Positions 25,658-43,089 of a stretch of DNA of 64,000 nt are shown piece after piece. The stretch's first letter is position 1. Every line of letters begins with the position of its first letter. The DNA is from a virus. The notes under the pieces were generated by a model that saw only the letters and a list, made by a program, of their open reading frames with translations, was not told where the DNA came from and searched no databases. The stretch covers positions 1 to 64,000 of the IMG/VR virus record IMGVR_UViG_3300031566_000019; one strand, 5' to 3'. Position numbers and translations under genes: made by a program.

Positions 25658-28600
25658 TTAGGACTGCGGGTCGGTTTGATTGCGACCGGGGAACGGGGCC
25701 ATCGGCACCGTCTCAGGATCATCCGTCGTGCGTGTACGTCCCACGAACATGGGCTTACCGTTGATGCGGTAACGATCAGAGGCTGCGTAGCCTTCGCCGA
25801 AACCGGTTGGGCTGATAATGCCGCCGATGGTGATGCCCGTGTCCTTCTGCGACGGACGCTCGTTGCCGATGACACCCTGCGTCAGGATGACCATCTGAAT
25901 CTCATCACCGTCCGTGGTGATGTCGTCCGTCGAGAACGCCTCCTCCACGAAGTTACGGATGAGAAGCGCCTTGCAAGCAAGCATGCCTCCCTTGAGCACC
26001 GGCTCGAGTGCGGGTGCGAAGGAATCCGAGAACCAGTCCACAGGACCACCCGGGTTACGGCCACCGAGCACGAAGGCTGAGCCACCACCACGGAACAAAC
26101 GGAACCTCTTGCTGCCGCCCGGATTCGTGTCCGAGAACGCGGTGTACTGGAGAATCGCACCGTCTGCTTGAGCGATGAGTTCTCCGGGTGCGCCGGCGAA
26201 CCGAGTGAACTCCTCACCTGCCGAAGCAGTGAGAGGAAGCAAGCTCTGCACGGGTCGGATGCCACCGAAGAACGTGTTCACTGCGGACGAGTTGTCCCCG
26301 AGCGGGTTCTCTCCGATGAAGTCCGAGTCTTGGAGCAGGATGCCAAGTGGCAAACGCTCCGTCATGCCTGTCAGGCTGAGCTGCGTCGTGCCGTTGCCGG
26401 CATTGAGGCGCAAGTCATCCCCACCGATCAGGTTCGTGGTGGTGAGCTGGGCATTGAGCCCTTGCTCGCCAGTGGTGGGCACCTTGAGCAGGAAGTTCGT
26501 GAGGTCGTTGACCTGAACCTTCACGTTGTTGCCGGCGGCTCCGACCTCAAACGCCACGATTTCGATTTGCGGCGAGTCGATGTCGTTGAAAGCCACCACG
26601 ACGCTCTGGAGTTCAGTGCGTGCATTGATCTTCGTCCACAACTCTCGAGCAATCACAGCCGGGTCGGGCGAGCTCGCATCGAACTCGTCCGCATTCAACG
26701 TGGCTCCGTTGACCGCTGTGAACACGTACGGCGTCCCATCGGGCACGAAAACGGTCGTGGCCGACGTGAGGAAGTTGAACGTCGAGTTGTCTCCGATGAT
26801 CTCGAGGACCGCGGAGGCACGGTTCGTGTTGGTCTGTGCCTGGCCTTCGGTGAAGGCTCGCGTCAGAATGCGCCACGCCGGAGTGTTGATCGCCGGTGGG
26901 ATACGGTTCGATGCGATCACCGCATCGTTCGTGTACCCCACGTCGGTCGGGGTGCCTGGGAACAGGCGACCGCCCATGTTGCCGGTGCCCATGGTCGTGT
27001 AGAAATCGACGGCTGCGAGCACTTGGTACGAACGACCGTTCGGACGTTGCGGGATCTGGTTGCCATCCGAGTCAAACTGCTGAATCGGCTGAGCGAGCCC
27101 AAAGGCGTCCGACTGTGCCACCTGCCCATAACGGTTCTCATAGTCAGAGACCGTACGGACTTCCCCGGCACGAGACATGTAGGGGTCACCCTGGTACACG
27201 GTGCGCTCGTATGCGACGTAGAGGCGCTGCGAGTCAGGAGCCGCGGCCGGGATACACATGACGGCACCCGAGAGCTCGGGGTTGCCGTTGTCGGACCGCA
27301 GAGTTCCTTGGCCGTTGTGACGCCGAGCCATCACGTAGTTGTTCTCGTTGATAAACCCATTGCCGAACCCGAAAGCCGTGAACTCAAGAACGTACTCGAG
27401 CTGCTCAGGCAGCTCTCCGCTAGCGAAGTTCGGGCTCTTCGTGATGTCGATGGCGTTGAACGGGATGATGTACGTGTGGTCACCCGAGACCCCCGTGAGG
27501 TCCATCGCACCGTCTTGGCAGATGAACAGGGTCTGCTTGTCCGCATCCCGACGCAACAGATTGACGGTTGGATTGGCCTCTGGGGTCACGCGGTCGCCTT
27601 GGTAGGTCGCGCCACCCTTGGCCACGAAATCACGACGGTCGTAGACGCCGACGAGACGGGAGATGCCCAAGTATGGAGGCAGCATGATGCCCTTGAGCCC
27701 TGCCCCGAAGTCCGAGCTAACCGTGTTGTTGAGCTTCTGCGTAATCTCGGCAGCCTCGGCGCACCCGGTCCCGATATCGGTCGTGAGGCGTCCTTGGTAG
27801 CCGGGCTTGAGCGTACCGGTGATGGTAGCGAACTGGGCGTAGTCCAGGCCTGAGGTTGCACCCGTCTGCGCGTACAGGTAGGTCACCTGCGCGCCGCCGG
27901 TCATGTTGTCTTCACCACCGATGATGTTGAACACGGGGTTCGACACATCAGTCACGTCGCAGAACAAGTGGTTGAGGCCCTCGAGGAAGTTGCCCGAACC
28001 GAACACAGGACCGTTGTCCTGGTAGTACGGGATATCCTGTCGGCCAAACCGCGGCATGTACTGGTGTGGCACCGGGTAGCCCATGCGCAGACCAGTCGTG
28101 AAGATCTGTGCGTCGTCCTTCGGTCCCGTGAAGCCTCCAAGAATGAGTGCCGGGGACGGGTACTGCGTGTCGTTCAATGGGTTGGTGACCCACGGAGCCC
28201 CGAGCAAGGTCGGAGTGTTGAACGGCGCGATGGTCGAGGGGTTCGGCAAGATCGTGACGCCCTTGAAGGTCATCGCCTTGCGCTGGAACGGCCGGAACAG
28301 AAGGGTCTTCGATCCGTTGTCGAAGAAACTCTCGTTCTCACGATCGATCTCCGAGCTCAGCACCACATTGCCGCCGTAGTTTGGAGCGTTGGGAGCCCAC
28401 TCACCAAGACTCGGCAAACGGTTCCACGTTTGGATGTGCGTGGGGCAGAAATCGACCTCAGCCGGGTTGCCCGGTGCTCCCGTTTCAGTCGGGAAGTTCG
28501 GATCAAGCACGGCCTTGCTCTGACGCATGATCGCACTGTTCGGGGTCTGCACCGCGATGCGATTGATCTGGTCAGGCACACGAGCCATGCCACCGCGTCC

Positions 28601-31345
28601 AGGGTGGTACATCAACGTGACATTCAGGATCGCCTTGAAATCGAAGGGGGTCGTGAGTGTGCGTCCGGCCTTGGCGCCCGGGTTGATGTTGTCCACGTTC
28701 CAAGGGTTGCTAGCGCCCCCCTGTGCGGCCCGCAGGTCCGTCATGGTGATCGTCATGGCAGCAGGGCCACCTGCCGATCCGTTGCCGTCCTCCGCGTTGG
28801 TGATCTGCGATCGCAGCTCAGCCGTGACGGTCTTCGTCGTCGTGTTGTTGAAATCCACGATCCCTTGCGAGATGAACTTGACGCGAATACGATTGGACTG
28901 GCTTGCCGGATTGGTCGTAAGACCCCCGTTGGCCGTCGTGGTTCCCGCACCGATGACCTTGAACGCACCGTTGTTCTCGGTCTTCTCATCATCACCGAAC
29001 AGGATCAGGTACACCTCGGACGAGTTGCCCGTGATGTCCTTCCCGCCGTTGGTGAGCATGGACCACAAAGTTCGCTGACGACGAAGCACCGGCTGCGTCA
29101 AAGCGTTTGGGTTGTTCTCGAAGGCCCCGTTGGAGTCCGCGCTCCACCAGTCGCCATCCACATCGAAATCGATGCCTGGCAGTACGATCTCACCCTCACC
29201 AAGCGGGATAGTGCCACCCGAAAGGAAGTTGCCCTCAAGCTGCGTGGCGCCGGTGATGCCCGTGATGACCGACGAGCTGTTGAGCACGCCGCCACACACG
29301 AGAAACGGCTTCTCGAAGTCGAGGGACTGGAGCGGGTACATCGGTCCGGGATGCTCGTCCTCCGTTTCGCCGGGCCCCGCGGGGGACAGCGCTTGGAGTC
29401 CTGCACCAGGCCCCGCCACGACGGCGTTGGCCTGATCGGAGCTCACCCACAACATGCTCACCGGGTTTTGCATCCCGGTGTTGGCGGTGGGGAAACGCGT
29501 CTTCCAGTATTCAAGCGGACTGACGAAACGAACGGCTCGAGTGCTCCCATCACGGAAGGTCTTGCGGGCGCCGTTGGTCCCATCATCACCACCGATGTAG
29601 AGAAAGACCGTCGTGCCGTCAGTGAACCCGGGAGTCGCGTTGTTCTGATTGTTCATGAACGCAGCAGGCTTGAAATCAGCCCCCACGTCCCAATCGACAA
29701 GGTCATCGAGTGTCTGAATGAACCCGGCGTTGATGGTGCCGTCCGGGTTGAGCAACATCGTCACGTCGCCTTGAATGGCGGCCGCGTCGGACCACACCTG
29801 ACGGATCCCATCAGGCCCATCGATACCCTCGGTGCCCACGGGAACCGCAGTGCCTCCGTCTTGAAGCAAGTAATCGATTTCAGTGACTGTCACTCCCTCG
29901 GTGTCGCCACCAGGGGCGCCAGCTTGCTTCCACGTCGATCGCAGACGGTTACGGACCACGGCTGCGACGTTGTGCAGCAAGATGCGGGTGTAGTCCCAGT
30001 CCCCGATGTTGCACCCACGGCGCAGGTCGAGGACATCTTCTTGAGACACTTCGTCCGCGAACTTGCCGTCGGGACGGGTGTTGAAGAACTGAATGGGACT
30101 TCCCGATCCGGGATCGCCGCCCGAATTGCGGCCAACGTGGTTGAGGATGTCCGAGCCCCAACGTCCACGACCATTGGCGGGGACCGTAATGGTCGCCGGG
30201 CTCGCAGTGGTATCCACAGCCGAGATCCCAATGACCTCGTCATCGATGACCATGAAGGCCTTCGTGAGGTCCATGCTCGAGTCGTCCCATCCCGAGCCAA
30301 TCAGGTTGTCAACCTCGATGAGGGTAGCCACCGTGAACTGTTCAGGGGCCAAGTCATTGATCAACGACATCGTGGTGAGCGCCGTGGCTCCGTCACGAGG
30401 ATCGGGCAAGGTGGCTGCCGAAGGGTTACGATCGAAAGCGCCGTTCTGATTGGGTGCCCCCGACAAATTGGCGGCCACGTAAGGCTGGTTGTTGCGCCGA
30501 AAAAGAGCGCAGACCGGAATGGCGTACGAATAGCCGTCTACGGTTCCCAAAGTGTTCTGCGCGTCGCCGTTGCCAGCACGCCACAAGGAGGGGTCTCCAA
30601 GGGCATCACGCATGTTTTCGTAAATGAAGGAGGTGACCGCGCTCGCGGTGCCCTGAGCGAACACGTTGGGGTCCCCAAGACCATCGGGGTAGACTTGAAG
30701 GTCAGGACTCGAACCCGCGCCCGAGCCACTTCCGACCACGCGAAGACGGTATTGGAGCTGCACGCGTTCGGTGGTCTCATGACCGATGGTGGGGTCCGTG
30801 ATGTCGTCAACGATGTTGGTTCCACCGAACTCGACGTTGCCGTACTTCCAGACCTTGTCGGATGCCGGTTTGTTGGCGGTGCTCGGATTCGGAGCGACCG
30901 AGGCCATCCACACCTCAAGAAACACGAAATCAATGCGCGTGTCACTCTCGGGAGGGGGGTACAGGCGCACTTCGTTGGAGGTCGATCCCGCAAGGGTGAG
31001 TTCAGTACCCGTGACCGGGACAATCCAACCATTGACGTTGGCGTACAGGACAGGGGCGAGTTCCTCGGGGTTCCCATCCGAGTCGTTCTTCTGCTGACCA
31101 AGTCGGAAAAAGTTCGACCAAGAAGACTCAGTCACGTAGTCCGCAAGCGCACGCGTGGGGTCGAGGAAGAACCCTGAATGAGCCTCAGCACGCACGAGTT
31201 GAGCGAGCTGCTCAACTTGATTCTGCTGCACCAGGTTCACTTCGCTGTCGAGCGGAGGCTTACCTTCCTGAAAAACGACAGCTTGAAACTGACGTGCGAA
31301 TGCGCTGAGAGTACGAGAAACGCCATTACCGAAATCTTGTGCCAT
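25658..31345 (-). CDS. Giant virion protein (tail fibre/baseplate candidate), paralogue of 39000-42425
   Basis: A 1895-residue protein, the largest in the window. Residues about 1-480 share blocks with the 1141-aa product of 39000-42425: KPPLDSEVNL, DFVFLEVWMA, YGNVE...DDITDPTIG, TTERVQLQYRLR, YAIPVCALFRRN and RPDGKFADEV...VLDLRR. The rest is Gly/Asn/Pro/Thr-rich, strand-dominated sequence without catalytic motifs, transmembrane helices or signal peptide, typical of multi-domain phage adhesion or baseplate proteins. The ATG has AAGGAC upstream. It lies last among the virion genes. Which virion structure it belongs to is inferred from context and composition only. Confidence 0.8.
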   Translation of the reverse strand: MAQDFGNGVSRTLSAFARQFQAVVFQEGKPPLDSEVNLVQQNQVEQLAQLVRAEAHSGFFLDPTRALADYVTESSWSNFFRLGQQKNDSDGNPEELAPVLYANVNGWIVPVTGTELTLAGSTSNEVRLYPPPESDTRIDFVFLEVWMASVAPNPSTANKPASDKVWKYGNVEFGGTNIVDDITDPTIGHETTERVQLQYRLRVVGSGSGAGSSPDLQVYPDGLGDPNVFAQGTASAVTSFIYENMRDALGDPSLWRAGNGDAQNTLGTVDGYSYAIPVCALFRRNNQPYVAANLSGAPNQNGAFDRNPSAATLPDPRDGATALTTMSLINDLAPEQFTVATLIEVDNLIGSGWDDSSMDLTKAFMVIDDEVIGISAVDTTASPATITVPANGRGRWGSDILNHVGRNSGGDPGSGSPIQFFNTRPDGKFADEVSQEDVLDLRRGCNIGDWDYTRILLHNVAAVVRNRLRSTWKQAGAPGGDTEGVTVTEIDYLLQDGGTAVPVGTEGIDGPDGIRQVWSDAAAIQGDVTMLLNPDGTINAGFIQTLDDLVDWDVGADFKPAAFMNNQNNATPGFTDGTTVFLYIGGDDGTNGARKTFRDGSTRAVRFVSPLEYWKTRFPTANTGMQNPVSMLWVSSDQANAVVAGPGAGLQALSPAGPGETEDEHPGPMYPLQSLDFEKPFLVCGGVLNSSSVITGITGATQLEGNFLSGGTIPLGEGEIVLPGIDFDVDGDWWSADSNGAFENNPNALTQPVLRRQRTLWSMLTNGGKDITGNSSEVYLILFGDDEKTENNGAFKVIGAGTTTANGGLTTNPASQSNRIRVKFISQGIVDFNNTTTKTVTAELRSQITNAEDGNGSAGGPAAMTITMTDLRAAQGGASNPWNVDNINPGAKAGRTLTTPFDFKAILNVTLMYHPGRGGMARVPDQINRIAVQTPNSAIMRQSKAVLDPNFPTETGAPGNPAEVDFCPTHIQTWNRLPSLGEWAPNAPNYGGNVVLSSEIDRENESFFDNGSKTLLFRPFQRKAMTFKGVTILPNPSTIAPFNTPTLLGAPWVTNPLNDTQYPSPALILGGFTGPKDDAQIFTTGLRMGYPVPHQYMPRFGRQDIPYYQDNGPVFGSGNFLEGLNHLFCDVTDVSNPVFNIIGGEDNMTGGAQVTYLYAQTGATSGLDYAQFATITGTLKPGYQGRLTTDIGTGCAEAAEITQKLNNTVSSDFGAGLKGIMLPPYLGISRLVGVYDRRDFVAKGGATYQGDRVTPEANPTVNLLRRDADKQTLFICQDGAMDLTGVSGDHTYIIPFNAIDITKSPNFASGELPEQLEYVLEFTAFGFGNGFINENNYVMARRHNGQGTLRSDNGNPELSGAVMCIPAAAPDSQRLYVAYERTVYQGDPYMSRAGEVRTVSDYENRYGQVAQSDAFGLAQPIQQFDSDGNQIPQRPNGRSYQVLAAVDFYTTMGTGNMGGRLFPGTPTDVGYTNDAVIASNRIPPAINTPAWRILTRAFTEGQAQTNTNRASAVLEIIGDNSTFNFLTSATTVFVPDGTPYVFTAVNGATLNADEFDASSPDPAVIARELWTKINARTELQSVVVAFNDIDSPQIEIVAFEVGAAGNNVKVQVNDLTNFLLKVPTTGEQGLNAQLTTTNLIGGDDLRLNAGNGTTQLSLTGMTERLPLGILLQDSDFIGENPLGDNSSAVNTFFGGIRPVQSLLPLTASAGEEFTRFAGAPGELIAQADGAILQYTAFSDTNPGGSKRFRLFRGGGSAFVLGGRNPGGPVDWFSDSFAPALEPVLKGGMLACKALLIRNFVEEAFSTDDITTDGDEIQMVILTQGVIGNERPSQKDTGITIGGIISPTGFGEGYAASDRYRINGKPMFVGRTRTTDDPETVPMAPFPGRNQTDPQS

Positions 31346-31358
31346 AGCTCAAAGTCCT

Positions 31359-32147
31359 TCAGAAGAGCAGCCCGTAGTGGGCGATGTATCTCTTCGAGAG
31401 TGAGTTCGTGTTCTTGAAGGCCAAGCGGATCAGCGTGGCGGGGTTACAGAAGGCGATGGGCACCAAGCGTTCCACAGGGAAGAAGTTCGCTCCGTCGTTG
31501 ACCGAGATGAAAACCTCAAAATCAGTCGGCTCTTGGTCAAGTTCAAGAGCCTGCCGAATCGCAGGAGAGTTCTGACCAGCGAAGAACCCGAAGTCCGTGT
31601 TCACATCCGTGGTCGTGTCAAACTCGTAGATGTACCAGTAGACGACGAACTCAGTCGCGCCGACTCCACCGGTCAGGGGCCCGACATCAATGGTGTCGGT
31701 GACGATGACACCAGGGCGCTCGAGGCCAAACCCAGGTGCATCGTTTTGCGGCAAAACTGCCACGGAGTTGGGGGCGTTGCCGAACGGCAACGGGCCCGCC
31801 GTTCCGCGCCCGAACTGGAATCGTGAAATGTGGGTTGCCGTGACCGGCGCACCCTCGCTCAGGACCCCTGCGGGATCGAGATCGTCGATGTCGCCCCCCT
31901 CGATGAGGGGGTTGAACAGGATGTTCTCGTACTGAGGGAACTGAACGAGCAACCCCGCGAAGTTCCGAGCCACGACCGAATTCGGGTCGGAACTCGGTAA
32001 AACGAAGCTGTCGGACTCCACGGCCACCTTCACGCCCTCCGCGATGGGGACCATGTACTGGCCATTCCGAGACACAGAGACCCCGTTTGGGGGGTTCTTC
32101 TCGACTTGGAGAATCTCGTCTCCGACGAGTGTGGCTACGATGCGCAT
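31359..32147 (-). CDS. Virion-associated hypothetical protein
   Basis: A 262-residue strand-rich protein (MRIVATLVGDEILQVEK; ...ATEFVVYWYIYEFDTTTDV...; FEVFISVNDGANFFPVERL; IRLAFKNTNSLSKRYIAHYGLLF). No membrane helix, signal or enzymatic motif. The alternating strands and turn residues suggest a beta-sandwich, as found in tail accessory or fibre-tip proteins. It starts 42 bases after the 1189-aa gene's stop; that gap contains GTCCTAT on the plus strand (32169-32175) and no terminator. Assignment as a structural protein rests on its place inside the virion block. Confidence 0.7.
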   Translation of the reverse strand: MRIVATLVGDEILQVEKNPPNGVSVSRNGQYMVPIAEGVKVAVESDSFVLPSSDPNSVVARNFAGLLVQFPQYENILFNPLIEGGDIDDLDPAGVLSEGAPVTATHISRFQFGRGTAGPLPFGNAPNSVAVLPQNDAPGFGLERPGVIVTDTIDVGPLTGGVGATEFVVYWYIYEFDTTTDVNTDFGFFAGQNSPAIRQALELDQEPTDFEVFISVNDGANFFPVERLVPIAFCNPATLIRLAFKNTNSLSKRYIAHYGLLF

Positions 32148-32189
32148 CGTACGTCTCTAAGGGGGGCAGTCCTATAAACGGAAAATGGA

Positions 32190-35100
32190 CTACGGAAGCG
32201 GGGGTAGATCGTCAATATCGGAGTCCAAGATGATCTTCATGGAGAAGATACTCAGGTCCATGCCAAAGGGCGTTCCAGGAGTTTCTCGAATTGCCGCCGC
32301 CGTAAAAAGGCCCCTGCCGTTGGAGACCGGCAATTGGTCTGCATGCGACACCGTGATGGAGTCGATCAGGTTCTTCTCACCGTCGTAGACCCCCATTTTC
32401 ACGATCTGCGAGTCGAGGTCGTTGAGTGCGATCCGGTTCGTCTCGATCACGAAGTAGTAAGGCCCCTGGAAAATGAAAGGACCCGTACTCGCACTTGTCC
32501 CCACCACAGGAAGAATGTTGTCTGGGTTCGTCGCTCCTCGTGTCCAGTACCTCCACGTACCCGCGGCTGCGAGATCGAATTGAAACCCGATGACACTGAA
32601 CGATGGGGCCAACACCGCCGGATCAGGAACGACACCAACCGTGGGAGTAATCCCTCCCCCGCCGCTTTCATCTTGAACGAAACCGATGAACCCTTTCGCC
32701 GTGGTGACCGGGTTACGGATCAGAATGCCCGCTTTGGCAACGAACCTGAGATTGTTGACCGTGGTAACGGAGCCCCTACCGGGAGGGGTCGCGTTATCCT
32801 GCGTGATGATCCCCGCAAAGCTTACAGCCTCAACCGACCGAATCTGGATGGCCATGCTCGGCCCTCGGTTGGTCCCGACCCCTAAAGGCCCCGGGATCGA
32901 GTGATCGTACAAGAAACCAGGGTTGGTACCGCCCGAATGGCCAACATCGGCTTGGTAGGCGAGGCCCTTGTAGATCCCGTCTTCTGCGAAATACAACAAG
33001 CCGGTCGAAGTAGGCACAGGGTTGGTGATGGTGTCGGCAGGAACCCGGAGCTTCGAGGGTTGAATGTGCCCCGTGGTCCTGTCGAGCTGCGCCGCAAGAT
33101 CTGGGCGCGGACGGATGGAAATAGACCCATCGATTTCGGGAAGCACCTTTGCACGCTCGAAACGAAGAGTCTGCGCTCGAGCCTCACTGCCGTACGTCGT
33201 GTCTCCGGCATAAAAATCCGTCACGGCCGGCAGCGAGAGGGTCTCCGTTCCGAAGAACACTTCACGCCGCAAAACGACGCCCCGAGTCTGCTCGCCCGCG
33301 TACAACGAGGGATCTGGATTGAAGGCCGTCGGGAATGCACTGAGCCCCAACAACGCTGTCCTCGGAGCCGCCCCTGAGACAACCGTGCGTGTCGAGGTGT
33401 AGCCCCAACGACCCAACGACTGCGAAGTGTCGGAACCCGTAGTGATCACGATGACCCCGGTCTCAGGACCATCCCAGAGCCGATCCAAAATGATGGCGTT
33501 ATCGCCTCCCGCATCTGCCGAAGGCCCGATGAACGGAGCGGTCACCGTGAAGGTGGTGGCGCCTGCGAAAGTGGAATCGAGCATGATCTTGGCGAAGACC
33601 TCTTCGCCGTACAGATCAGCATCGCGAAGACCAGCTCCTCGATTGGCGGTGACACGCGCTCCCGTCCCGAGCTGGGACTCCTCCATCGAGTAGGGCACGC
33701 AAGCCCCAAACAACACGACCTCTCCACGAGGGTTGTTGCCCGTGATGCCTTGGATGCCGTTGGGGATGACATCCGAAGGTGCCAGAGGAATATCGCCTCG
33801 GGACGTGGGCGGAGGGAGGCTCAAACGCACGATCCCCGATGAGTAGTCGACCTCGAGGAACTGCTTCTCCGTTGTGATGGAACCATCGATCACGAGCTCG
33901 CGGCCCATAATCGGCCGATCGAAATCGGGGATGGCTTGCGTGGCGTCGTTCGGGTCTTCTATTGCCGGGAACAGCACCATGCGGAACCCAAGGTCCATCA
34001 AGTTGCCCGGGTTAGCCGCCTCAGGAAGACCGACACCGAAGAAACGACGCGTATCAAAGATCGCTTTGTCAGGGCGTCCGGCCGAAGATCCTCCGGGAGG
34101 TGGTGGCCCTCCCCCAATCGAGAGAGGATCTGACAACTGCTTCTCGAACCGCTCAACCCAGTTCGGGTTGATGAGGTTTTTGAGCCGCGCGGACTCAACC
34201 TTGTCGATGCGGAAAGCGTTGTACCAGAGTGCTTCAACCGGTTCGTGTAGCGTGAAGCCCACCGCCACATTCGGGCCGTGGATGGTGGCTTCCCAGGGTC
34301 CCGGACCCCAGTAGGTGAGGCCCGTTTGCGGATCTGTTTCAGGCACTCGAGCCAAGACCACGGTGTCGGGGCCCACGGTCGTACCCACCACGTCGAACCA
34401 TCCCAAACAGTTCGGGATGCTGCCCAACGTAAGGTCGGGGAGGTCATCAGCTCGTGCAGTCGCATTGATGCGAATGATCGGAAACCGCGACGAGAACAGA
34501 GGAGGTTCGGAGTAAATGGTTGAGTCCGAAACCGTCAGCGTCCAGTTGCCCACCAAAGCCGACGGCGCAAAAGCCGTTGCCTCGACGTTGGCGATAGCTT
34601 CTCGGACTGGGATCGGAATGGGCAGGCGCACGGAGCCGCCATACGCCGTCGGCTCGCCCCCGATGGGGCTACCGAAAGGAGCTCGGGCGTTGGTGAAGCC
34701 ACCGCCGATCCAGGTGCCGTCTCCGCTTCCGGGACCTGCGGCGCTGTCGTAGGGTGGGAAGTTGTCGTTGCCAGCCGCCTGCTCTGGCGAGACGGTCACA
34801 AAGACCTGCTCGCGGCCCGACGTGCTCACACCATCGTTGCCCCCCGGCGCCCCGGACTGCGGAATGGCAGCCAGCCGTGTCACGTAGGGCTTGATGACCG
34901 TGATCGCCCGAATCGCCCGAGCCCCTGCAATCGGCAAGTCGAAGAAGTTGGCGAACGATTTGTTCGGATGGATCTCGATGGTGAAATCCGTGATCGCCGA
35001 AATGCGGAAGACCTCGTAACGCGCCGTGTCCGTGAAGTTGGAGAGCGCCCCCATCGGCACCTGGCCTCCAACCGTGTCCAACGAGCCAGGGTTCGCCCCA

Positions 35101-35759
35101 TCGTCCGTGACGATCAGGTAGAGACCCCCGTTGGGCTCAGCCGCGTCACCGATGGTCCACGGCGTCGCCGGCACCGCGGTCGAGTTTGGGCCGTACGTGC
35201 CAAGGACAGTCGTAAAGATGGACGACGGCACCCCGTCTGGCCTCACCCCCACGGTCAGGAGATCACCCCCGTTAGGCCCCGCTCCCTGTGCGACGTCCCA
35301 AGTCCAGTCGGTGAACGGCGACTTGAGCGTAGAACCCACAACCTCAAAAGAGATCGGGTGCCCCACCAGCGAAGGGCCCTTGCTGCCGAATGTGTTGGTC
35401 CGCCAGTTGTAAGGGACGAAGTTGACCTCTGGAGGCCCGCGTTTGCCGACGTGATGCGTCTTGGACCGGATGGGTACCGGAGGCCCGAGCGGATCGATAC
35501 CCTCAATGGGCTCAGGAGGGGTTCCGATCGCGTTGGGAGCGACTCGAGATCCCCAACTGTATTTGTACTGGGCGGCCCATGAGCCCGACATCCCCTCGAT
35601 GACCTTCGCAGCGAGGGCGGCCTTCGCAGCGTTCACCGTGGCGTCACGACTGATGTGCTCTTGCCACGGCTCAAGTGCCAGACGCGTCTTTCCCTGGGCC
35701 TCAAAAGCCTTACGGAGTTTGTCGAGGGTCTCCTTTTCCTGGTCAGTGAAGTCAGCCAT
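32190..35759 (-). CDS. Large virion protein (tail fibre/baseplate candidate)
   Basis: A 1189-residue protein. A helical, charged N-terminus (TDQEKETLDKLRKAFEAQGK) and an Ala-rich helix around 45-65 are followed by more than 1000 residues of strand/turn sequence rich in Gly, Pro, Thr and Asp. There is a Pro/Gly linker around 560 (GGGPPPPGGSS). No catalytic residues, signal or membrane segments can be identified. Length, composition and tandem position with similarly large genes indicate a structural tail component; the fold and exact role are not recognisable by eye. The start has a GGAGTTCC sequence directly upstream. Confidence 0.78.
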   Translation of the reverse strand: MADFTDQEKETLDKLRKAFEAQGKTRLALEPWQEHISRDATVNAAKAALAAKVIEGMSGSWAAQYKYSWGSRVAPNAIGTPPEPIEGIDPLGPPVPIRSKTHHVGKRGPPEVNFVPYNWRTNTFGSKGPSLVGHPISFEVVGSTLKSPFTDWTWDVAQGAGPNGGDLLTVGVRPDGVPSSIFTTVLGTYGPNSTAVPATPWTIGDAAEPNGGLYLIVTDDGANPGSLDTVGGQVPMGALSNFTDTARYEVFRISAITDFTIEIHPNKSFANFFDLPIAGARAIRAITVIKPYVTRLAAIPQSGAPGGNDGVSTSGREQVFVTVSPEQAAGNDNFPPYDSAAGPGSGDGTWIGGGFTNARAPFGSPIGGEPTAYGGSVRLPIPIPVREAIANVEATAFAPSALVGNWTLTVSDSTIYSEPPLFSSRFPIIRINATARADDLPDLTLGSIPNCLGWFDVVGTTVGPDTVVLARVPETDPQTGLTYWGPGPWEATIHGPNVAVGFTLHEPVEALWYNAFRIDKVESARLKNLINPNWVERFEKQLSDPLSIGGGPPPPGGSSAGRPDKAIFDTRRFFGVGLPEAANPGNLMDLGFRMVLFPAIEDPNDATQAIPDFDRPIMGRELVIDGSITTEKQFLEVDYSSGIVRLSLPPPTSRGDIPLAPSDVIPNGIQGITGNNPRGEVVLFGACVPYSMEESQLGTGARVTANRGAGLRDADLYGEEVFAKIMLDSTFAGATTFTVTAPFIGPSADAGGDNAIILDRLWDGPETGVIVITTGSDTSQSLGRWGYTSTRTVVSGAAPRTALLGLSAFPTAFNPDPSLYAGEQTRGVVLRREVFFGTETLSLPAVTDFYAGDTTYGSEARAQTLRFERAKVLPEIDGSISIRPRPDLAAQLDRTTGHIQPSKLRVPADTITNPVPTSTGLLYFAEDGIYKGLAYQADVGHSGGTNPGFLYDHSIPGPLGVGTNRGPSMAIQIRSVEAVSFAGIITQDNATPPGRGSVTTVNNLRFVAKAGILIRNPVTTAKGFIGFVQDESGGGGITPTVGVVPDPAVLAPSFSVIGFQFDLAAAGTWRYWTRGATNPDNILPVVGTSASTGPFIFQGPYYFVIETNRIALNDLDSQIVKMGVYDGEKNLIDSITVSHADQLPVSNGRGLFTAAAIRETPGTPFGMDLSIFSMKIILDSDIDDLPPLP

Positions 35760-35768
35760 GGGAACTCC

Positions 35769-38700
35769 TTACGGGACGGTAGGCGGACCGAACGGCGCCG
35801 TGTCGTTGGGGCCGAGGCCGTTGCTATGACGAAGGAGGGTGACACCCGTCAGGGCGCGCGGGGTGTCTGAGGTAGAACCAGATCCTCCTTGAGTGAAGTT
35901 GTAAGCAATACCCGCGGCTTTGATGCGGGCACGCACCACGACGGGGGCAACCCCAAGTGGAGCGAGTGGGTTGAGTCCCGAGTTAGCAAACACGTTGACG
36001 GAGGGACCCACGTTGATGCGAACCTGACAGAACACAGTACCCGTGACAGCGTCGCGACCATTGAACGTCGCAGTCGGGTCGATGATCTGGCAACCTGCAC
36101 CATCCGCGAGAGGGTCTTGTTTGGAAGGACCGTCCATGTCACGGCGCCCCATGTCCATCCACGTCGTAAGACCTGGGATCTTTGCCTCGAGCGCGATGAA
36201 GGCACTTCCCGGCCCCCCTGGTGTGTAGCCGAAGTCAGCGAGCTCAAGGCCGTCGATGCGGAAGGTGAGGAAAGGCTGCCCAACGACAGTGGGTTCTTTA
36301 TCCGCATCCGCAACCTGGTTGGAGTACGCGGCATCAAATACACGGAGGTACACGCGCTCAGGATCGACCACGACGTTGTAGTCGGGCTGCCCCACCGAAG
36401 GGGTGAACCCTGTCGTGTAGTCGATTTGCGGGTAGATCAGCATGCCACTGAACGGGCATGGGTTCGTCACGCCATCCGTCACCGGAGGATCACGGTCAGG
36501 CAGCCCTGACACCTGTGCTTCCGTCGTCACCGCTGCCGCCGAAGAAAGGTCGAGCAGGTGATAGTCGGTGCGCAGGAAGCTGGCGATGCCGAAGGACACG
36601 AGCGCTTCGGAGGCGAACCTCACGGGCAGCTCAAGCGGTCCCGCCACCGGGAACGGAAGCCCCGGTCCCACCAAGTTGCCCACGAGCAATCCTGCGTTAT
36701 AGGTCGAGTCGATGCTGACGAGTGCGGAGTCCGCCACCCGATAGACCTCATCGTAGAACCGCTCCTCCACATCTTTGCGCGGGGTCTCAAGGCTCGGTCG
36801 CGGCGGGAAGTCTCCGGGGTCGGTGGTCTTGAAGTTCCCGTAGTCACCGCCGCCGTCAAATGAAGGCGACTGGTTCGTCGTGTGCATGAGGATGGAGTCC
36901 CCACCAGGATTCGGAAACAAGAACGAAATGTTCGGGTCCACCGTATCTTGCTGTTGGACCGGCTTGCGCATGAACAACCGCAAGCGTGCGTCGTGCGAAA
37001 AGTGAGATTGCGTCAGGTCACCGACAGAACGGATGGGGATGTCCCCACCGACAAGAACGATGTCGGCACTGTCGATGGTGGTGGGGCCGGTGCTCAGGTC
37101 CCAAGGACCGCTCACACTGTCCAAATCCACGTAGTCGAAATCCACGCGTTGATAGAAGGAAAGCCCCGTGTATCCGGCTCCGAGACCGTTGAGCAAATTG
37201 CTATCTGCGGTCAGCATCCCCATGTAGAGGACGCCGGGATGCTGGTGCCACAACCCGTTCGTGATGTCCGGGAGCGCGTGGAGATACCCAAGTCGGAACG
37301 CAGTGGACCACAGCCCACTCACACTCCAGTCGAGGGTGTCGATTCTCCAGTTCGTTCCTGGGCCTGACCCGTTCGGGAGGTGATGCTGCACGCCTGAGAC
37401 GTACATGACTTCCCCGGGCTCACTAGCGAAGGTGTAGCTTGGCCCGCTGAGAAGAACGAGCGGGTCGTTTTCGTCATCGAAAATGGCCGACCGATGGAGG
37501 TGGTACGCCGAGGACGTAACTGGCGTTGGATTCGTGGTGTCGGTCAGATTGTCAACGCTCTCCGGGTTCGTGTAGTTCACCATGTTGGCGCTCCACATCT
37601 CGTAACCGAAGAAGAAGTCGTCGGGCATCGTGCCGTCACGAGCAAACGACTCGAAATCGCTTTCCCGTTTGAAATGGAGCAGGAGGTAGCTCCCCTGGTC
37701 GGGGGAGCTCATGAGATCGAAGGTGTGTCGGTAGCGAGAGACCTGGAAAGTCCAGTAGTCCTTCAAGAAGTTCGCGTAATCTCCGGCCTGCGTCAGATCC
37801 GTTCCCGGATCAAGGGACACAGGAGGCTTCGTGAAGTAGCGAGGCTTCTGAGCAGCGGGCGTGTGTTCGATCCCCGTAGCACTCGAGTAGTCATCGAGAT
37901 ACGGGAGCCGGTACTGGAAGAAGTTGTCGTCATTGCCGCCGCCGTTGGCCGCCGTCGTGCCTCCAAGGATGGGGATGCCACCAGGGACAATAGGGACGCC
38001 TGCATTCAAGTCCGAGCCAAGACGAACTTGACCCGCAGTCGGATCGGCGCCGGCAGGGATCGGGGACCCCGTCAGGACATCCAACCCGGTATGAAGCTCG
38101 GCCATGTTGTACTGACCGGAGGCACGTCCAGGGAAAGCAAACACGTCGGGGGACCCCTCGGAGAACATGCCCCCGGGGTCGCCATCACACTCATCATTGA
38201 TGCCCTGGCCGCACAAGATCGCTGCGACAACACGGGTCGTGAGGGGCTGCGCCAAGAACTCAGGAACGCCTCCGGCCGCCGGCCAACGAAGCAACGCAAT
38301 CACACCACGGTCGGCGGGGAACACAGACCCCGACACCACCACTTCGGGATCGGCAGGAGCTGTGAGGCGAACACGAGCGGTCTCGATGATCGGGCCGATA
38401 CGAACGAAACCACCTTCGTGCACGGTGCCCGTGCCACCACCAGGGTAGCCCACGTCTTCCACGTTGAACGTCGGGTCCGAGTTCGGGTCGTCACCGTCTA
38501 CGGTGAAAGGAGCACCGCGGGTATTGGTCGCTCCGGGGCCAAAAATGACCGGCGTGAACGACTGCTGCGCCTCGAAAGGAGGGACCCACCACTCGTTGTA
38601 GATAAAAAAGTCTTGATTGGGAGAGGCCGGGACCGGGGAAGTCACCTCCCCACGCAGCACGTAACCCGCATCGCGGAGTTTGAGACGCCCCCAGTCGGGG

Positions 38701-38996
38701 ACCCCCGTGAAACCGAGGACGGTCGAGAAGTTTCCGATGGTGGGCGGCTTCAAAGGAACAAGCGCACTGAGTTCGTCCAGGTTGCCCTGCACATCGTCCC
38801 CGAAGTAGATGCCTCCCGAGCCCGTGGTCGAGATGGCGGACGCTTCATGGGCTCCCTGCGGGTCGTTGAGATGTGCCTCAAGACCGTGGTTCTGTCCCTC
38901 GATAACCTCGTCCGTGAACGAGTTGGAGTCCACGGAGTTCTGGTTTGCGAGGCCAGTGCCCTTCTTGATGCTGCCGGGATCTACGTTACGAGGCAT
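35769..38996 (-). CDS. Large virion protein (tail fibre/baseplate candidate)
   Basis: A 1075-residue protein. The N-terminus (MPRNVDPGSIKKGTGLANQNSVDSNSFTDEVIEG) resembles a flexible attachment segment, and LEAHLNDPQGAHEASAI...DDVQGNLDEL is the kind of short helical repeat seen near the base of phage fibres. The remainder is Gly/Pro/Asp/Thr-rich with many aromatic residues (YWTFQVSRYRHTFDLM; FFFGYEMWSANM), predicted beta structure. No enzymatic motif is seen. It lies only nine bases from the 1189-aa gene and three from the 1141-aa gene, so it belongs to one virion operon. Confidence 0.78.
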   Translation of the reverse strand: MPRNVDPGSIKKGTGLANQNSVDSNSFTDEVIEGQNHGLEAHLNDPQGAHEASAISTTGSGGIYFGDDVQGNLDELSALVPLKPPTIGNFSTVLGFTGVPDWGRLKLRDAGYVLRGEVTSPVPASPNQDFFIYNEWWVPPFEAQQSFTPVIFGPGATNTRGAPFTVDGDDPNSDPTFNVEDVGYPGGGTGTVHEGGFVRIGPIIETARVRLTAPADPEVVVSGSVFPADRGVIALLRWPAAGGVPEFLAQPLTTRVVAAILCGQGINDECDGDPGGMFSEGSPDVFAFPGRASGQYNMAELHTGLDVLTGSPIPAGADPTAGQVRLGSDLNAGVPIVPGGIPILGGTTAANGGGNDDNFFQYRLPYLDDYSSATGIEHTPAAQKPRYFTKPPVSLDPGTDLTQAGDYANFLKDYWTFQVSRYRHTFDLMSSPDQGSYLLLHFKRESDFESFARDGTMPDDFFFGYEMWSANMVNYTNPESVDNLTDTTNPTPVTSSAYHLHRSAIFDDENDPLVLLSGPSYTFASEPGEVMYVSGVQHHLPNGSGPGTNWRIDTLDWSVSGLWSTAFRLGYLHALPDITNGLWHQHPGVLYMGMLTADSNLLNGLGAGYTGLSFYQRVDFDYVDLDSVSGPWDLSTGPTTIDSADIVLVGGDIPIRSVGDLTQSHFSHDARLRLFMRKPVQQQDTVDPNISFLFPNPGGDSILMHTTNQSPSFDGGGDYGNFKTTDPGDFPPRPSLETPRKDVEERFYDEVYRVADSALVSIDSTYNAGLLVGNLVGPGLPFPVAGPLELPVRFASEALVSFGIASFLRTDYHLLDLSSAAAVTTEAQVSGLPDRDPPVTDGVTNPCPFSGMLIYPQIDYTTGFTPSVGQPDYNVVVDPERVYLRVFDAAYSNQVADADKEPTVVGQPFLTFRIDGLELADFGYTPGGPGSAFIALEAKIPGLTTWMDMGRRDMDGPSKQDPLADGAGCQIIDPTATFNGRDAVTGTVFCQVRINVGPSVNVFANSGLNPLAPLGVAPVVVRARIKAAGIAYNFTQGGSGSTSDTPRALTGVTLLRHSNGLGPNDTAPFGPPTVP

Positions 38997-38999
38997 GCC

Positions 39000-41900
39000 C
39001 TACTCCTGATTCCCCGTCGTCATGAGAAGGTTCTTGGTTCGGAAAATGCCGACGCCAGTGTTGCCCTCAGCGTCTGCGAACTCGACGTTGTTGTTCGCAT
39101 CGAGGACGGCCCATCGCGTGATCACCAGGAGGAGCAGTTCATCCTTTCGGAACAACACACTGTCTTGCAGCGATCGAGCAAGCACTGGGACGAAGACCTT
39201 GTGCCGCACGACGTTGCTCATGCCCTGAGCCATCGCCGTGGGACGGTGACTTGAGCGGTTGATGACCGGGTACACAGCGCGGAACTCGGTGTCCTTGAAC
39301 GGTGCATCGGTGACAGGGGTGCCTCCGACCGTCCAACCGATCGAACCCTCAGCGGGGACGAGAGAGTGGAGCGCCAACGTGCCCACCTCCGCATCGAAAT
39401 CGTCGATGGAGATGTTCGCCGTCGCAGCGAAGTAGTATTCGCCAGGGAACGTGGCAGGTGCCGGCGGCACCTCCGTGCGACCGTCGTTGACGGGGAGCTG
39501 GTCGAGTGGGGCGAAGTACGGGAACGGGAGCTCCACGCTGCCCATGCCGACCTGACCGGTCCACACGTTCGTGCTGATGTACATGGGCTCCACGTTGAGC
39601 GTGGAAGGCAACGGCCCAAGAGCCCCGGGGTACGGGAAGTCTTGAATGGTCGTGCTGATGGTGCCTTCCTTGGTGCCCACCGTTTGCGGCGCGTTCGTGC
39701 GGTAGTAGACCGTCTGCTGGTAGCCCGCGCCGGCTGGTCCGAAGTTCGGCAGAGGGTCCTGAGCAAAGAAACGAACCTCGCACAAGGTCTGTCCGGCACC
39801 TGACAATGGAACGGCAGGCGCAGGGCCGGAAATATCGAGCGTCACAAGGCGCGTGGAGGCTCCGTAGTGCGTGTTCGGGTCGTCCACGTCCCGAGGGTTC
39901 CCATCGTCGCCATCGGTCACGAGGATGGACGTGGAGGCGTCTCCGAAGAACCGGCGAGGCAGCACGAAGGTGGTGGGGTCCCGGCTGACTACCGTTTCAG
40001 GCGTCAGGGTTCCAATGGGGATGCCCGCGTTTCCCCCACCTGCGGTCGGGTCGTTGGCGATGTACTCAATGGCGACTTCACGGAACCCTTGTCGGAACTC
40101 GGGAGCGCGCCGGTCTTCCATGTCAGTCGGGCGCTGATCGGGTCCTGTGGGGAGCCAGTTCTCGAGCATTGGACCGTAAGGCCACGGGACAGGATCGGGG
40201 ACAACCTCGTGGTCGGGAGTGTCGGTCGTGCCGAAGCCCAGGGGATAGGTGATCTCGAGCTCGACGAACACGCGTCGAGGGGAGCCCACGTCACCACTGA
40301 TGAGCGTGCCCACCATGTCATGTGCCGCAGCGTTGATGCCTCCGGTGACTTGGGTGGGGTTCACATCAAGCGTGAGCTGTGCGTGAGGTGTCCCGAGACC
40401 GATGACCGTTGTGAGCTTCACGGTCTGATCCACCGCAAAGTTCCAGTTGCCGTCATCGTGGAATACCGAAAGGACATCCGTGATGGTGGTTCCCGGAGGG
40501 GCGAGCGCGGTGAAGAGACCGCCGGGTCCGGGCCACGACTCGACATTCGTTGGATCGAAGTCTCCGAGCGTTGAAGTGTTGAGCGAACTCAGATCGATGT
40601 TGAGCTCGTCCCCCTCAGCCCATCCCGCAAAGGCGGCTGCGAAAGCCGGGCGCACGACATACTCGCCTGGTGTCGTCCCCGAGACGTCCCCGGGAAGCAA
40701 AGCAAACACGACACGCTCCACGACAGGCTGATCCCCGAAGCGACGAGCAACATGGTCGAAGTTGCGAATGGTCTCGCCTCGAGTCGTGTCTCCCGAAAGT
40801 GGGGCCACACCGCCGGCGGCCGCAGTACGACCGACCTCGTTTGCCACGAGGTTGCGCGTAGACACGTCGCCCGAGCCTGCCCCCATCACCTGCTTGGAAG
40901 CGGTATCGATGGCCCACGTCCGCACAGTACCGTCTTGAAGACACTGCATCTGGTACTGGAGTTCCCCGGCGAAATCGTGATCGGCGAACTTGACGTGCCG
41001 TCGAAGGTCGAGGACATCGTTGTCCACGATCTGGTCTGCGAACACACCATCGGGGCGTCCCGACTCGGTGGGGGCAACGGCCGCGAACAGATTGGGGTTG
41101 GCGATGCCTCCGTGGTCATAGCGGAGACCGCCATTCGTATTCTCAAGCGGATTGAACCCGATACCCGCCGTAGCGTCGTTCTTGCGGAACACGAAGCAAA
41201 GCGGGATCGCATAGACGAACCCATCAATCGTTCCGAGGTCCGACGCAGAAGAGGCGGTGCCCGCTCCGGCGATCCACAACCCGTTGTCGAGCAGCCCGTA
41301 ACCGATATCCGTCCCGGCGACACCATCTCGAGCATCGCTGTTGGCGACCACCGATTTGAGATCAGCAGGCACGAAAGGATACAGGGCAACGGGTGCAACC
41401 TGTGTCCCCTGCGCAAGGACAGCGGCGTTGGAGAAGCCGTCTGCTTGGAGTTTGAAGTCGATGCCCTCAGCCGCGCCGGTGTGCCGGATGCGGTACTGCA
41501 CTTGGACACGCTTGGTCGTCTCGACCCCCACGATGGGATCTTCGATGTCGTCCTCGAGGGCGACGGTAGTCGAAGAATCCACATTGCCGTGTCGGTAGAT
41601 CGAATCCTGCGTGGGCTTGTTTCCTGTGTCTGCGCCACCCGTCAGGAATCCTCCCGAGGCCAAAATGCCGACGGGGTTGGAGCTGCCGAGTGTGATGGCG
41701 TTTCCAACGACACCTGGAGCATTGGCCGTGATCTGCACGTTGTTGGCGTTCGCCACCGCGGTCACGGAAGGCACCACCGCATTGATCGCCGTGGCCAGGT
41801 TGCTTGCCGTCACAGCGGGGCTGATCGCGTTGATTTGGAACTGGAAAGCTGCAGGCGGGACGAGGACAGCAGTGAGGATGACGCCATCGACCGTCACCGT

Positions 41901-42425
41901 GTTGCCCACAGCCACTGCAACCGGGTCGTTGACGAACAGGCTCCCCTTGGCGCTAGGGCTCTCGCTGACGAGCGCGAGCCAGACCTCAAGGAACACGAAG
42001 TCGGTGCGCTTGAACGTCGCGGGGGTGCCGTCGAAAGTGGTGGGCGCGTCAAGCTGAATGACGTTGTCGCCCTTCGTGTCCGTATCGACGTACTCGATAT
42101 CGAGCAGCATCCCGGCAACGAGAGCTTGCACCTTCTGCATGTGGAAGGCGTTGGGGATGAAGTCAGGATTCAGCCCGGGGATGTAGGGGTCGTCGTAACT
42201 GAACTCGTTGTACGCATCGCCCCGCGACTGACCACGCACCCATCCCGAAGGCAAGGTTCGCGCAAGCTGCCGGATACGGTCGAGATCGCGGACATCCTGC
42301 TCAAGGTTCTTCTCCGAGTCGAGAACGAGCTTCCCCTTCTGAGACACGACGGTGTCCCAGGACCGTTCCTTGGGATCAAGGTAACGGCTGACTGACGTGG
42401 GGAAGTACTTCGGGCGAGTAGGCAT
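39000..42425 (-). CDS. Large virion protein, paralogue of the 1895-aa protein
   Basis: A 1141-residue protein. Its N-terminal 500 residues are related to those of the 25658-31345 product: KGKLVLDSEKNL, DFVFLEVWLA, YRHGNVD...DDIEDPIVG, TTKRVQVQYRIR, FVYAIPLCFVFRKN and RPDGVFADQI...VLDLRR occur in the same order. Between these it has an extra insert around 165-260 (Val/Ala/Asn-rich strands such as AVAVGNTVTVDGVILTAVLV), which resembles small repeat modules in adhesins. The C-terminal half is unrelated, strand-rich and Pro/Gly-rich. No catalytic motif is visible. Two related N-termini with different C-termini suggest a shared attachment platform bearing alternative distal modules. Confidence 0.8.
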   Translation of the reverse strand: MPTRPKYFPTSVSRYLDPKERSWDTVVSQKGKLVLDSEKNLEQDVRDLDRIRQLARTLPSGWVRGQSRGDAYNEFSYDDPYIPGLNPDFIPNAFHMQKVQALVAGMLLDIEYVDTDTKGDNVIQLDAPTTFDGTPATFKRTDFVFLEVWLALVSESPSAKGSLFVNDPVAVAVGNTVTVDGVILTAVLVPPAAFQFQINAISPAVTASNLATAINAVVPSVTAVANANNVQITANAPGVVGNAITLGSSNPVGILASGGFLTGGADTGNKPTQDSIYRHGNVDSSTTVALEDDIEDPIVGVETTKRVQVQYRIRHTGAAEGIDFKLQADGFSNAAVLAQGTQVAPVALYPFVPADLKSVVANSDARDGVAGTDIGYGLLDNGLWIAGAGTASSASDLGTIDGFVYAIPLCFVFRKNDATAGIGFNPLENTNGGLRYDHGGIANPNLFAAVAPTESGRPDGVFADQIVDNDVLDLRRHVKFADHDFAGELQYQMQCLQDGTVRTWAIDTASKQVMGAGSGDVSTRNLVANEVGRTAAAGGVAPLSGDTTRGETIRNFDHVARRFGDQPVVERVVFALLPGDVSGTTPGEYVVRPAFAAAFAGWAEGDELNIDLSSLNTSTLGDFDPTNVESWPGPGGLFTALAPPGTTITDVLSVFHDDGNWNFAVDQTVKLTTVIGLGTPHAQLTLDVNPTQVTGGINAAAHDMVGTLISGDVGSPRRVFVELEITYPLGFGTTDTPDHEVVPDPVPWPYGPMLENWLPTGPDQRPTDMEDRRAPEFRQGFREVAIEYIANDPTAGGGNAGIPIGTLTPETVVSRDPTTFVLPRRFFGDASTSILVTDGDDGNPRDVDDPNTHYGASTRLVTLDISGPAPAVPLSGAGQTLCEVRFFAQDPLPNFGPAGAGYQQTVYYRTNAPQTVGTKEGTISTTIQDFPYPGALGPLPSTLNVEPMYISTNVWTGQVGMGSVELPFPYFAPLDQLPVNDGRTEVPPAPATFPGEYYFAATANISIDDFDAEVGTLALHSLVPAEGSIGWTVGGTPVTDAPFKDTEFRAVYPVINRSSHRPTAMAQGMSNVVRHKVFVPVLARSLQDSVLFRKDELLLLVITRWAVLDANNNVEFADAEGNTGVGIFRTKNLLMTTGNQE

Positions 42426-42435
42426 CGGCGACCGC

Positions 42436-43089
42436 CTAGAATGTGAGGCGCCACGTTATGGTCAGGATCGACGTGGCCGGTTTCGAGATGACCGAGAAGG
42501 TCAGGTAGTTGACCAGCTCGTCATAGTTCGAGACGTCGATCGTCGGGTCGTAGGGAGAGCCCCCTTGACCGGCGAAGTTTGGGTTGTTGTTCTGAACTCC
42601 AGTGTTGTCGGAGATCGTGGAAAGCAGACCCATCTCGTTGAGGGGACCAACCGCCTCGGACTCACCGTAAATCGTGGTGAAGTCCACCACGTTCGTCGCG
42701 ATGGAGACGGCCGCGCCATTGGCGTCACGGAACGTGGTCTCCGAAAACGACTTGCGCTGAATCTCGTTGTTGAGACGCCGCTGCTGGTTCCCTGGGGCGT
42801 CCGGGTTCAAGACCGCCCCTAGGGCACCGGTGCCAACCGAGAGCATGTTGATGCCGTGTGCGGGCTCGAGCGGGTCCTTCATCAGGCGCGCTACGAGAAG
42901 CCCTGCATCGAGAGTCACGACGTTGTCCTGCTGCCGCTTGAGCAGGAGCACTTCGGTACGGGCGTCGCGCATCTCGAAAAAGACGGTGCCTTTGACCGTC
43001 AAGAGCGAGGGCTCCGCGTAGCGGTGTCCCATGCCGATCTTGAAGCCGGTTCTGGCCGGCTGGATGTTTTCACGAATGACCTTGGGCAT
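42436..43089 (-). CDS. Virion-associated protein, possibly tail/baseplate
   Basis: A 217-residue protein (MPKVIRENIQPARTGFKIGM) with a mix of strands and a central helix (LDAGLLVARLMKDP). Segments such as INMLSVGTGALG, NNEIQRKSF and GPLNEMGLL, then TSILTITWRLTF at the end, match a pattern I associate with phage fibre-attachment or baseplate accessory proteins: a conserved GTG, an oligomerising helix and a beta-sandwich. That match is from memory and unverified. The start has AGGGAG upstream. The 40-base gap before it contains GTCCTAT on the minus strand (43115-43121). Confidence 0.7.
   Translation of the reverse strand: MPKVIRENIQPARTGFKIGMGHRYAEPSLLTVKGTVFFEMRDARTEVLLLKRQQDNVVTLDAGLLVARLMKDPLEPAHGINMLSVGTGALGAVLNPDAPGNQQRRLNNEIQRKSFSETTFRDANGAAVSIATNVVDFTTIYGESEAVGPLNEMGLLSTISDNTGVQNNNPNFAGQGGSPYDPTIDVSNYDELVNYLTFSVISKPATSILTITWRLTF

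Follow-up and report, generated by a model that had tools for sequence, protein, structure and literature searches.

Two giant proteins that begin alike and end differently raise the question of whether they are receptor-binding branches of a phage tail, with exchangeable distal modules, or fixed parts of its baseplate. Such a pair is encoded in the window studied here, a stretch of 64,000 nucleotides that comprises bases 1-64000 of IMG/VR virus record IMGVR_UViG_3300031566_000019 (71,680 bases in total). Its long member, protein A (1895 residues), and its short member, protein B (1141 residues), correspond to minus-strand open reading frames at 25658..31345 and 39000..42425 (stop codons included), as annotated in an original prediction made from the sequence, which proposed that a gene was duplicated and that distal modules were then swapped, as expected for two receptor-binding or baseplate branches. 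We consider it probable that this pair belongs to the baseplate of a huge phage with a contractile tail, as two associated structural proteins whose shared domain would dock and whose distal parts would build peripheral structures. This view is based on the shared domain, the conservation of the pair, the linkage of each distal part to its own N-terminus, the gene order around the baseplate wedge, evolutionary rates like those of core components, and the recurrence of the shared domain in several phage G genes.

A shared N-terminal domain

In the profile-profile comparison suggested with the original prediction, residues 4-498 of A (29852..31336, minus strand) and residues 7-539 of B (40809..42407, minus strand, an insert included) aligned by hhalign with probability 100 and an E-value of 3.1e-49, and the two N-termini are thus homologous. 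A direct BLASTP comparison of the two proteins gave 2e-23, and their Smith-Waterman score of 280 compares with a maximum of 80 among 200 shuffles of B. Of the six sequence blocks reported earlier over about 500 residues, the four that had been spelled out were located in both proteins, in the same order: DFVFLEVW (A 139-146, B 142-149), TT(E/K)RVQ(L/V)QYR(L/I)R (A 191-202, B 303-314), RPDG(K/V)FAD (A 424-431, B 457-464) and VLDLRR (A 438-443, B 471-476). These four patterns matched nowhere else in the six frames of the window, and a search of the whole source record with B recovered nothing beyond B itself and the N-terminal region of A. Homology of this kind leaves little room for unrelated folds in the two N-termini. 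Neither protein has a match in Pfam (at E 0.1), in PHROG or in NCBIfam.

The AlphaFold2 models of B (pLDDT 86.6, pTM 0.82) and of residues 696-1895 of A (pLDDT 77.7, pTM 0.62) are both strand-rich. In the model of B a long helix at residues 36-57 (pLDDT 64-79 by blocks) overlaps a conserved motif, GKxxLDSExNL, at residues 31-41. The best match of this model in BFVD is gp211 of phage G (E 2e-25), with gp420, gp431 and gp423 of the same phage at ranks 3, 5 and 13, and Foldseek searches of the PDB with whole B and with A 696-1895 gave nothing below an E-value of 0.001. A resemblance between B 29-492 and chain 6n38_E of the TssK-TssF-TssG complex of the type VI secretion system (VIA Z 4.8, 146 residues, root-mean-square deviation 4.8) lies within the uninformative range and was discarded.

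An old duplication retained as a pair

A tblastn search of 50,697 phage records (E 0.01) returned the same four records for A and for B, namely LR745208, Tunturiibacter phage Tunturi_5 and two copies of phage G, of which only LR745208, a metagenomic genome of 485 kb, matched over at least 80% of the length, with 43% identity for both proteins. A 12-row profile built from the shared domain detected 454 related stretches in IMG/VR, the best 80 of which were kept, and the records of 44 of these 80 loci, plus ten other records, were searched for A and B. The sample is biased, given that likeness to A set the ranking of the 80 loci and that some contigs are near-duplicates (e.g. G008, G009 and G010). 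One long and one short copy on the same strand were found in 47 of 51 IMG/VR contigs (40/44 and 7/7): A was present in all 44 of the best-80 records searched and B in 40, and the four records with no match to B (G021, G023, G025 and G031) may be fragments. Among the ten other records, both paralogues occur in all seven IMG/VR contigs and in LR745208, Tunturi_5 carries a single gene, and phage G gave six matches across five genes. B lies upstream of A in 45 of the 47 IMG/VR records that hold both; in the remaining two, G033 and G034, it is A that lies upstream, by 49-56 kb from start to start, and the match scores of G034 equal those of LR745208. No description of the A/B pair was found in the titles or abstract openings of the literature covered, which left subscription journals mostly outside. 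The shared domain is also found on 11 genome-collection contigs (L287-L297) from metagenome bins assigned to many phyla, with labels such as archaea, Verrucomicrobiota and Actinomycetota, four of the bins being matched twice; these contigs are probably binned phage and give no host.

The 146 distinct complete proteins recovered, together with A of the window, were sorted by length into 54 A, 12 A2 (distant long copies), 66 B, 10 B2 (distant short copies) and five others. With BLAST at E 1e-4, the distal parts of A and A2 gave 1302 alignments and those of B and B2 gave 646, against a single alignment among the 3564 possible A-B pairs and a marginal one (E 9e-5) among the 792 A2-B pairs. Single-linkage clustering of the distal parts at first put 142 proteins in a single group; the bridges identified were the marginal A2-B match and a module common to one A (L066) and one B (L169). 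In a tree of the shared domain (78 representatives, a careful IQ-TREE run in which the bootstrap had not quite settled), A with A2 and B with B2 formed separate branches with support 100/98, an earlier quick tree having given 98 and 90. It might be argued that the A/B and A2/B2 pairs stem from separate duplications, the pair having arisen more than once, and an approximately unbiased test of A2 and B2 as a single clade was indeed not significant (p 0.163), so that the tree alone does not exclude such a history. Nevertheless, both trees separate the long from the short copies, and separate duplications would not yield the distal homology observed between A and A2 and between B and B2, which makes this scenario very improbable. 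The pair is, as judged from these comparisons, an old gene duplication retained as a long and a short member across a huge-phage lineage, and the part of the original prediction that invoked a duplication is upheld. The attachment of the phage G and Tunturi_5 copies to the tree is unsure because of their long branches, and the candidate assignment of gp211 and gp420 of phage G as orthologues of B and A, respectively, was not confirmed by trees.

Distal parts stay with their N-termini

The distal parts of A (residues 499-1895, 25661..29851, minus strand) and B (residues 540-1141, 39003..40808, minus strand) differ, as had been noticed at the outset: their profiles do not match in hhalign, with a probability of 0.1, or 0.2 with larger alignments. 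They do not seem to move between proteins either. In 66 long (2145 pairs) and 76 short proteins (2850 pairs), N-terminal and distal identities correlate with rho 0.84-0.90, and the slot of A that holds the inserted module described below follows the N-terminus more loosely (correlation 0.68). Among 58 pairs of A with N-terminal identity above 0.7, the first distal quarter fell below 0.45 in three, possibly by local replacement, and the module slot in four; none of the 48 equivalent pairs of B had a distal segment below 0.45. Among the distal segments of A, mean identity is highest (0.46) in the C-terminal 240 residues, and there is no hypervariable tip. A distal part that is variable or exchanged relative to its N-terminus, which would typify a receptor-binding protein with exchangeable tips, was found for neither A nor B. 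The distal parts of this lineage keep to their own N-termini, those of A matching A2 and those of B matching B2, so that the swapping of distal modules put forward in the original prediction is not seen, and a recent duplication with distal exchange was rejected on the distal BLAST pattern, the domain tree and the parallel identities of the two ends.

A sheath-type module

The only movable piece found is a module of about 110 residues, which occupies internal slots and not tips and which adds to what had been noted before. It is present at residues 161-266 of B (106 residues, inside the shared domain; 41628..41945, minus strand) and at residues 1527-1644 of A, near the C-terminus (26414..26767, minus strand; module hidden Markov model 1e-21). 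In sequence it matches the sheath protein 9hz7 (E 0.0016), and by VIA both copies match the fold of 8kee, a sheath-tube entry of cyanophage A-1(L), with Z 11.4 over 90 residues for B (root-mean-square deviation 2.3) and Z 10.6 over 94 residues for A (2.2). The module therefore resembles the insert domains of tail sheaths, including those of Agrobacterium phages Milano and 7-7-1, but here it sits in proteins of a baseplate cluster rather than in a sheath. Flagellin, FliD, podovirus-tail and crAss001 virion protein chains were matched as well.

An iterated model detected the module in 47 of 54 A and all 66 B, and in none of the 12 A2 or 10 B2. By a strict pattern test, 48 of the 66 B proteins have the first copy flanked by the FLE-W and KP blocks, and the fixed slot is claimed for these 48; in the other 18 one block escaped the simple patterns or lay beyond the allowed distance. 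In A, 239-311 residues follow the last module copy. Both motifs flanking the slot could be measured in 25 of 66 long proteins, in which the slot is 146-194, 279 or 380-409 residues wide, the wider ones suggesting added domains, and 226-248 residues follow the second motif. Two recognisable copies were found only in the A protein of contig G013 (L066), which has a stretch of 128 residues in common with the B protein of the same contig (L169) at 56% identity. This similarity suggests that the module was copied between the paralogues.

Gene order and rates of evolution

In the window, the minus-strand tail cluster runs from a gp25-like wedge gene (56092..57264; phrog_43, 6e-4) and a gp6/J-like wedge gene (52532..56080; phrog_6, 4e-28) through several giant genes to B, two further giants, a gene for a 262-residue protein and A. 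The gp6/J-like protein has homologues in Tunturi_5 and phage G that bear the annotation baseplate wedge, and the homologues of the gp25-like protein are a protein of Tunturi_5 annotated as baseplate protein and gp187 of phage G. B lies about 10 kb downstream of the wedge gene here. The search for wedge genes covered 14 records. One of them gave no match and two, those of Tunturi_5 and phage G, hold no A/B pair, which leaves 11 with both paralogues and a wedge match. In 10 of the 11, B was encoded about 9-15 kb downstream of the wedge match on the same strand, and hence beside the wedge genes; for A this position holds in only part of the lineage.

The conservation of both proteins is comparable to that of the baseplate wedge protein or higher. 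Identities to the window protein in five relatives (G001, G003, G008, G006 and LR745208, in this order) are 65, 65, 52, 46 and 42% for the wedge protein, 79, 75, 63, 47 and 43% for A, and 79, 74, 58, 44 and 43% for B. Such core-like conservation does not suggest receptor-binding tips; of the two roles originally proposed, the baseplate fits the gene order. The two giants between B and A evolve faster. The 1189-residue protein g32190 (32190..35759, minus strand), the fastest of the group and a candidate adhesin, retains 39-58% identity in six relatives, against 58-85% for A and B in these genomes, and had no match in G006 or in the whole LR745208 record. The 1075-residue protein (35769..38996, minus strand) is intermediate, with 47-69% in the same six relatives and 33% over part of its length in LR745208. 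Host-range determinants are likelier to lie among these faster-evolving neighbours, whose products would contact the receptor, than in A and B.

Each paralogue has a small gene directly upstream. A 217-residue type (42436..43089, minus strand; phrog_5417, unknown function) precedes B in 37 of the 39 loci that leave space for it, and a 262-residue type (31359..32147, minus strand) precedes A in 53 of 64; the products may be partners or chaperones. A duplicated cassette of small plus giant gene was considered and rejected, as the two small genes show no homology (hhalign 0.1%).

Comparison with known systems

In Bacillus phage G, gp211, gp420, gp423, gp431 and gp673 gave profile matches at E 0.01 and have the shared domain or at least the beginning of it; hhalign probabilities of 98.7% for A with gp420 and 97.6% with gp211 indicate homology of the N-terminal domain, and phrog_10588, annotated as tail protein, matches the N-terminal parts of gp211, gp431 and gp673. 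Phage G thus holds five genes with this domain where the window holds two, and its distal parts are not detectably related to those of A and B. The distal parts of B and gp211 matched at best with E 0.028, five shuffles and one reversal giving 0.24-0.59; a local match between them (84%, E 7e-6) weakened to E 0.035 once a larger alignment of the distal parts alone was used, and homology is not claimed. The distal part of gp211 contains a Laminin_G_3-like domain, that of gp431 an ILEI-like domain and that of gp673 GH113 and polysaccharide deacetylase domains, and gp673, judging from its domains, is possibly a cell-wall- or capsule-degrading tail protein.

The product of gp247 in Tunturi_5, annotated as tail fiber protein, shares the domain over about 400 residues (hhalign 99% with both A and B). 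It differs in being the single copy found and in lying upstream, not downstream, of the wedge gene, and its distal part compares with A and B at chance level save for one weak local match (E 0.0005, 50 columns). Tunturi_5 is described as a myovirus in PMC11924767.

Proteins of the DUF4815 family (PF16075), such as a 1152-residue protein of Staphylococcus phage UHP46, are alike in size and in their N-terminal motif. In two Herelleviridae such a protein is encoded after a small gene and baseplate genes, which in Bacillus phage Grass are gp25-like and J-like, and structures have been solved (PDB 9euf and others), 9eui being titled phi812 baseplate, post-contraction. Neither A nor B was matched by the DUF4815 model at E 10, the cut-off being 30 bits, which none of the records of five relatives exceeded. 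A direct profile match between the A/B family and DUF4815 is weak (E 0.0035 over 49 columns, in the N-terminal 50 residues or so), and the link runs only through phage G gp673 (1.2e-6 and 3.2e-7), a giant protein (L202 529-3627) with an N-terminal DUF4815-like segment under the cut-off. DUF4815 models appeared among the BFVD matches of B only at E 0.1, and the VIA rows came mostly from the insert. By analogy, A and B may work like the DUF4815 baseplate protein, a likeness that stops short of assigning them to the family.

In phage T4, several peripheral baseplate proteins (gp9, gp10, gp11 and gp12) are encoded after gp25-gp6. The likeness to A and B lies in gene order and, as far as shown here, does not extend to the sequence or the fold of the shared domain.

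Other genes of the window

Past the tail cluster, ten genes beyond A were scanned, among them a GroEL gene, replication genes and two genes of DNA-methyltransferase type. The phage-encoded GroEL-type chaperonin lies at 22456-24126 (phrog_5725, 7e-89). Two neighbouring proteins, at 9908-10558 and 11191-12675, have their N-terminal 200 residues or so in common (37% identity, 3e-27), and the longer of the two bears a DNA-methyltransferase-type part. A 1763-residue protein of LR745208 (L005 12554-17845) matches the window gene 51109 (51109-52626) in its first 500 residues or so and, in the rest, the C-terminal part (494-1815) of gene 43130 (43130-48706), and represents a fusion, a split or a head exchange beside the wedge gene. 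The apparent paralogy of g51109 and g43130 was an artefact of this fusion protein being present in both families, and vanished upon its removal.

Discussion

Taking these results together, we propose that the shared N-terminal domain of about 450 residues would anchor A and B at the tail tip, probably at the gp6/gp25 wedge or close to it, and that the distal parts, each fixed for its own paralogue, would build two different peripheral structures, either arms or fibre bases. Receptor contact would then fall mainly to the neighbouring, faster-evolving proteins. Presence in the virion, N-terminal docking and the oligomeric state are predictions from sequence. Several observations weigh against this proposal. 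B is encoded about 87 kb from the wedge gene in G022, and in LR745208 A lies more than 50 kb from B, which ties A to the baseplate cluster in only part of the lineage. Nor does the inserted module point specifically to a baseplate, as its kind also occurs in sheaths, podovirus tail proteins, flagellins and crAss001 virion proteins. The Laminin_G_3-like and ILEI-like domains of phage G score under the Pfam cut-offs (24.7 of 27.6 bits and 25.4 of 27, respectively). Finally, no solved structure matched the shared domain, the reason why docking is something we infer, and since the PDB rows were mostly filled by the inserted module the fold of this domain has hardly been probed.

A receptor-binding role, in which A and B would be tail fibre branches exchanging distal parts between phages to alter host range, draws on the coupling of the same N-terminal domain to glycan-related domains in phage G, on the tail fiber annotation of the Tunturi_5 relative and on the lack of detectable distal similarity beyond the lineage. 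Within the lineage, however, distal identity follows N-terminal identity, close pairs diverge distally in only a handful of A and in no B, and the end of A is its most conserved distal segment, all of which make this role rather unlikely. Nearly the same, if marginally lower, standing may be given to a place elsewhere in the virion, such as neck whiskers, a decoration of the tail shaft or capsid fibres. The occurrence of the inserted module's kind in several sorts of protein and the distance that can separate A from the wedge cluster would be in accordance with such a place, but B remains beside the wedge genes in 10 of 11 records and the phage G paralogues match a tail PHROG. Two baseplate-associated structural proteins remain the reading that we favor.

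More tentatively, and doubtful as a whole, the shared domain could serve huge-phage baseplates in general as a docking socket and be distantly akin to the DUF4815 protein of Herelleviridae baseplates. The lineage studied here would have frozen one pair and phage G would have made five arms, some with differing glycan-binding or glycan-cleaving heads, while the sheath-type module, absent from A2 and B2, would have been acquired by A as well as B in the main clade and in places copied from one to the other.

The family formed by A and B, for which Pfam, PHROG and NCBIfam hold no model, marks a huge-phage lineage. Its description separates giant proteins that resemble fixed baseplate parts from neighbors that are likelier to set host range, and links metagenomic megaphages to the culturable phage G and Tunturi_5, in which the docking idea is testable.

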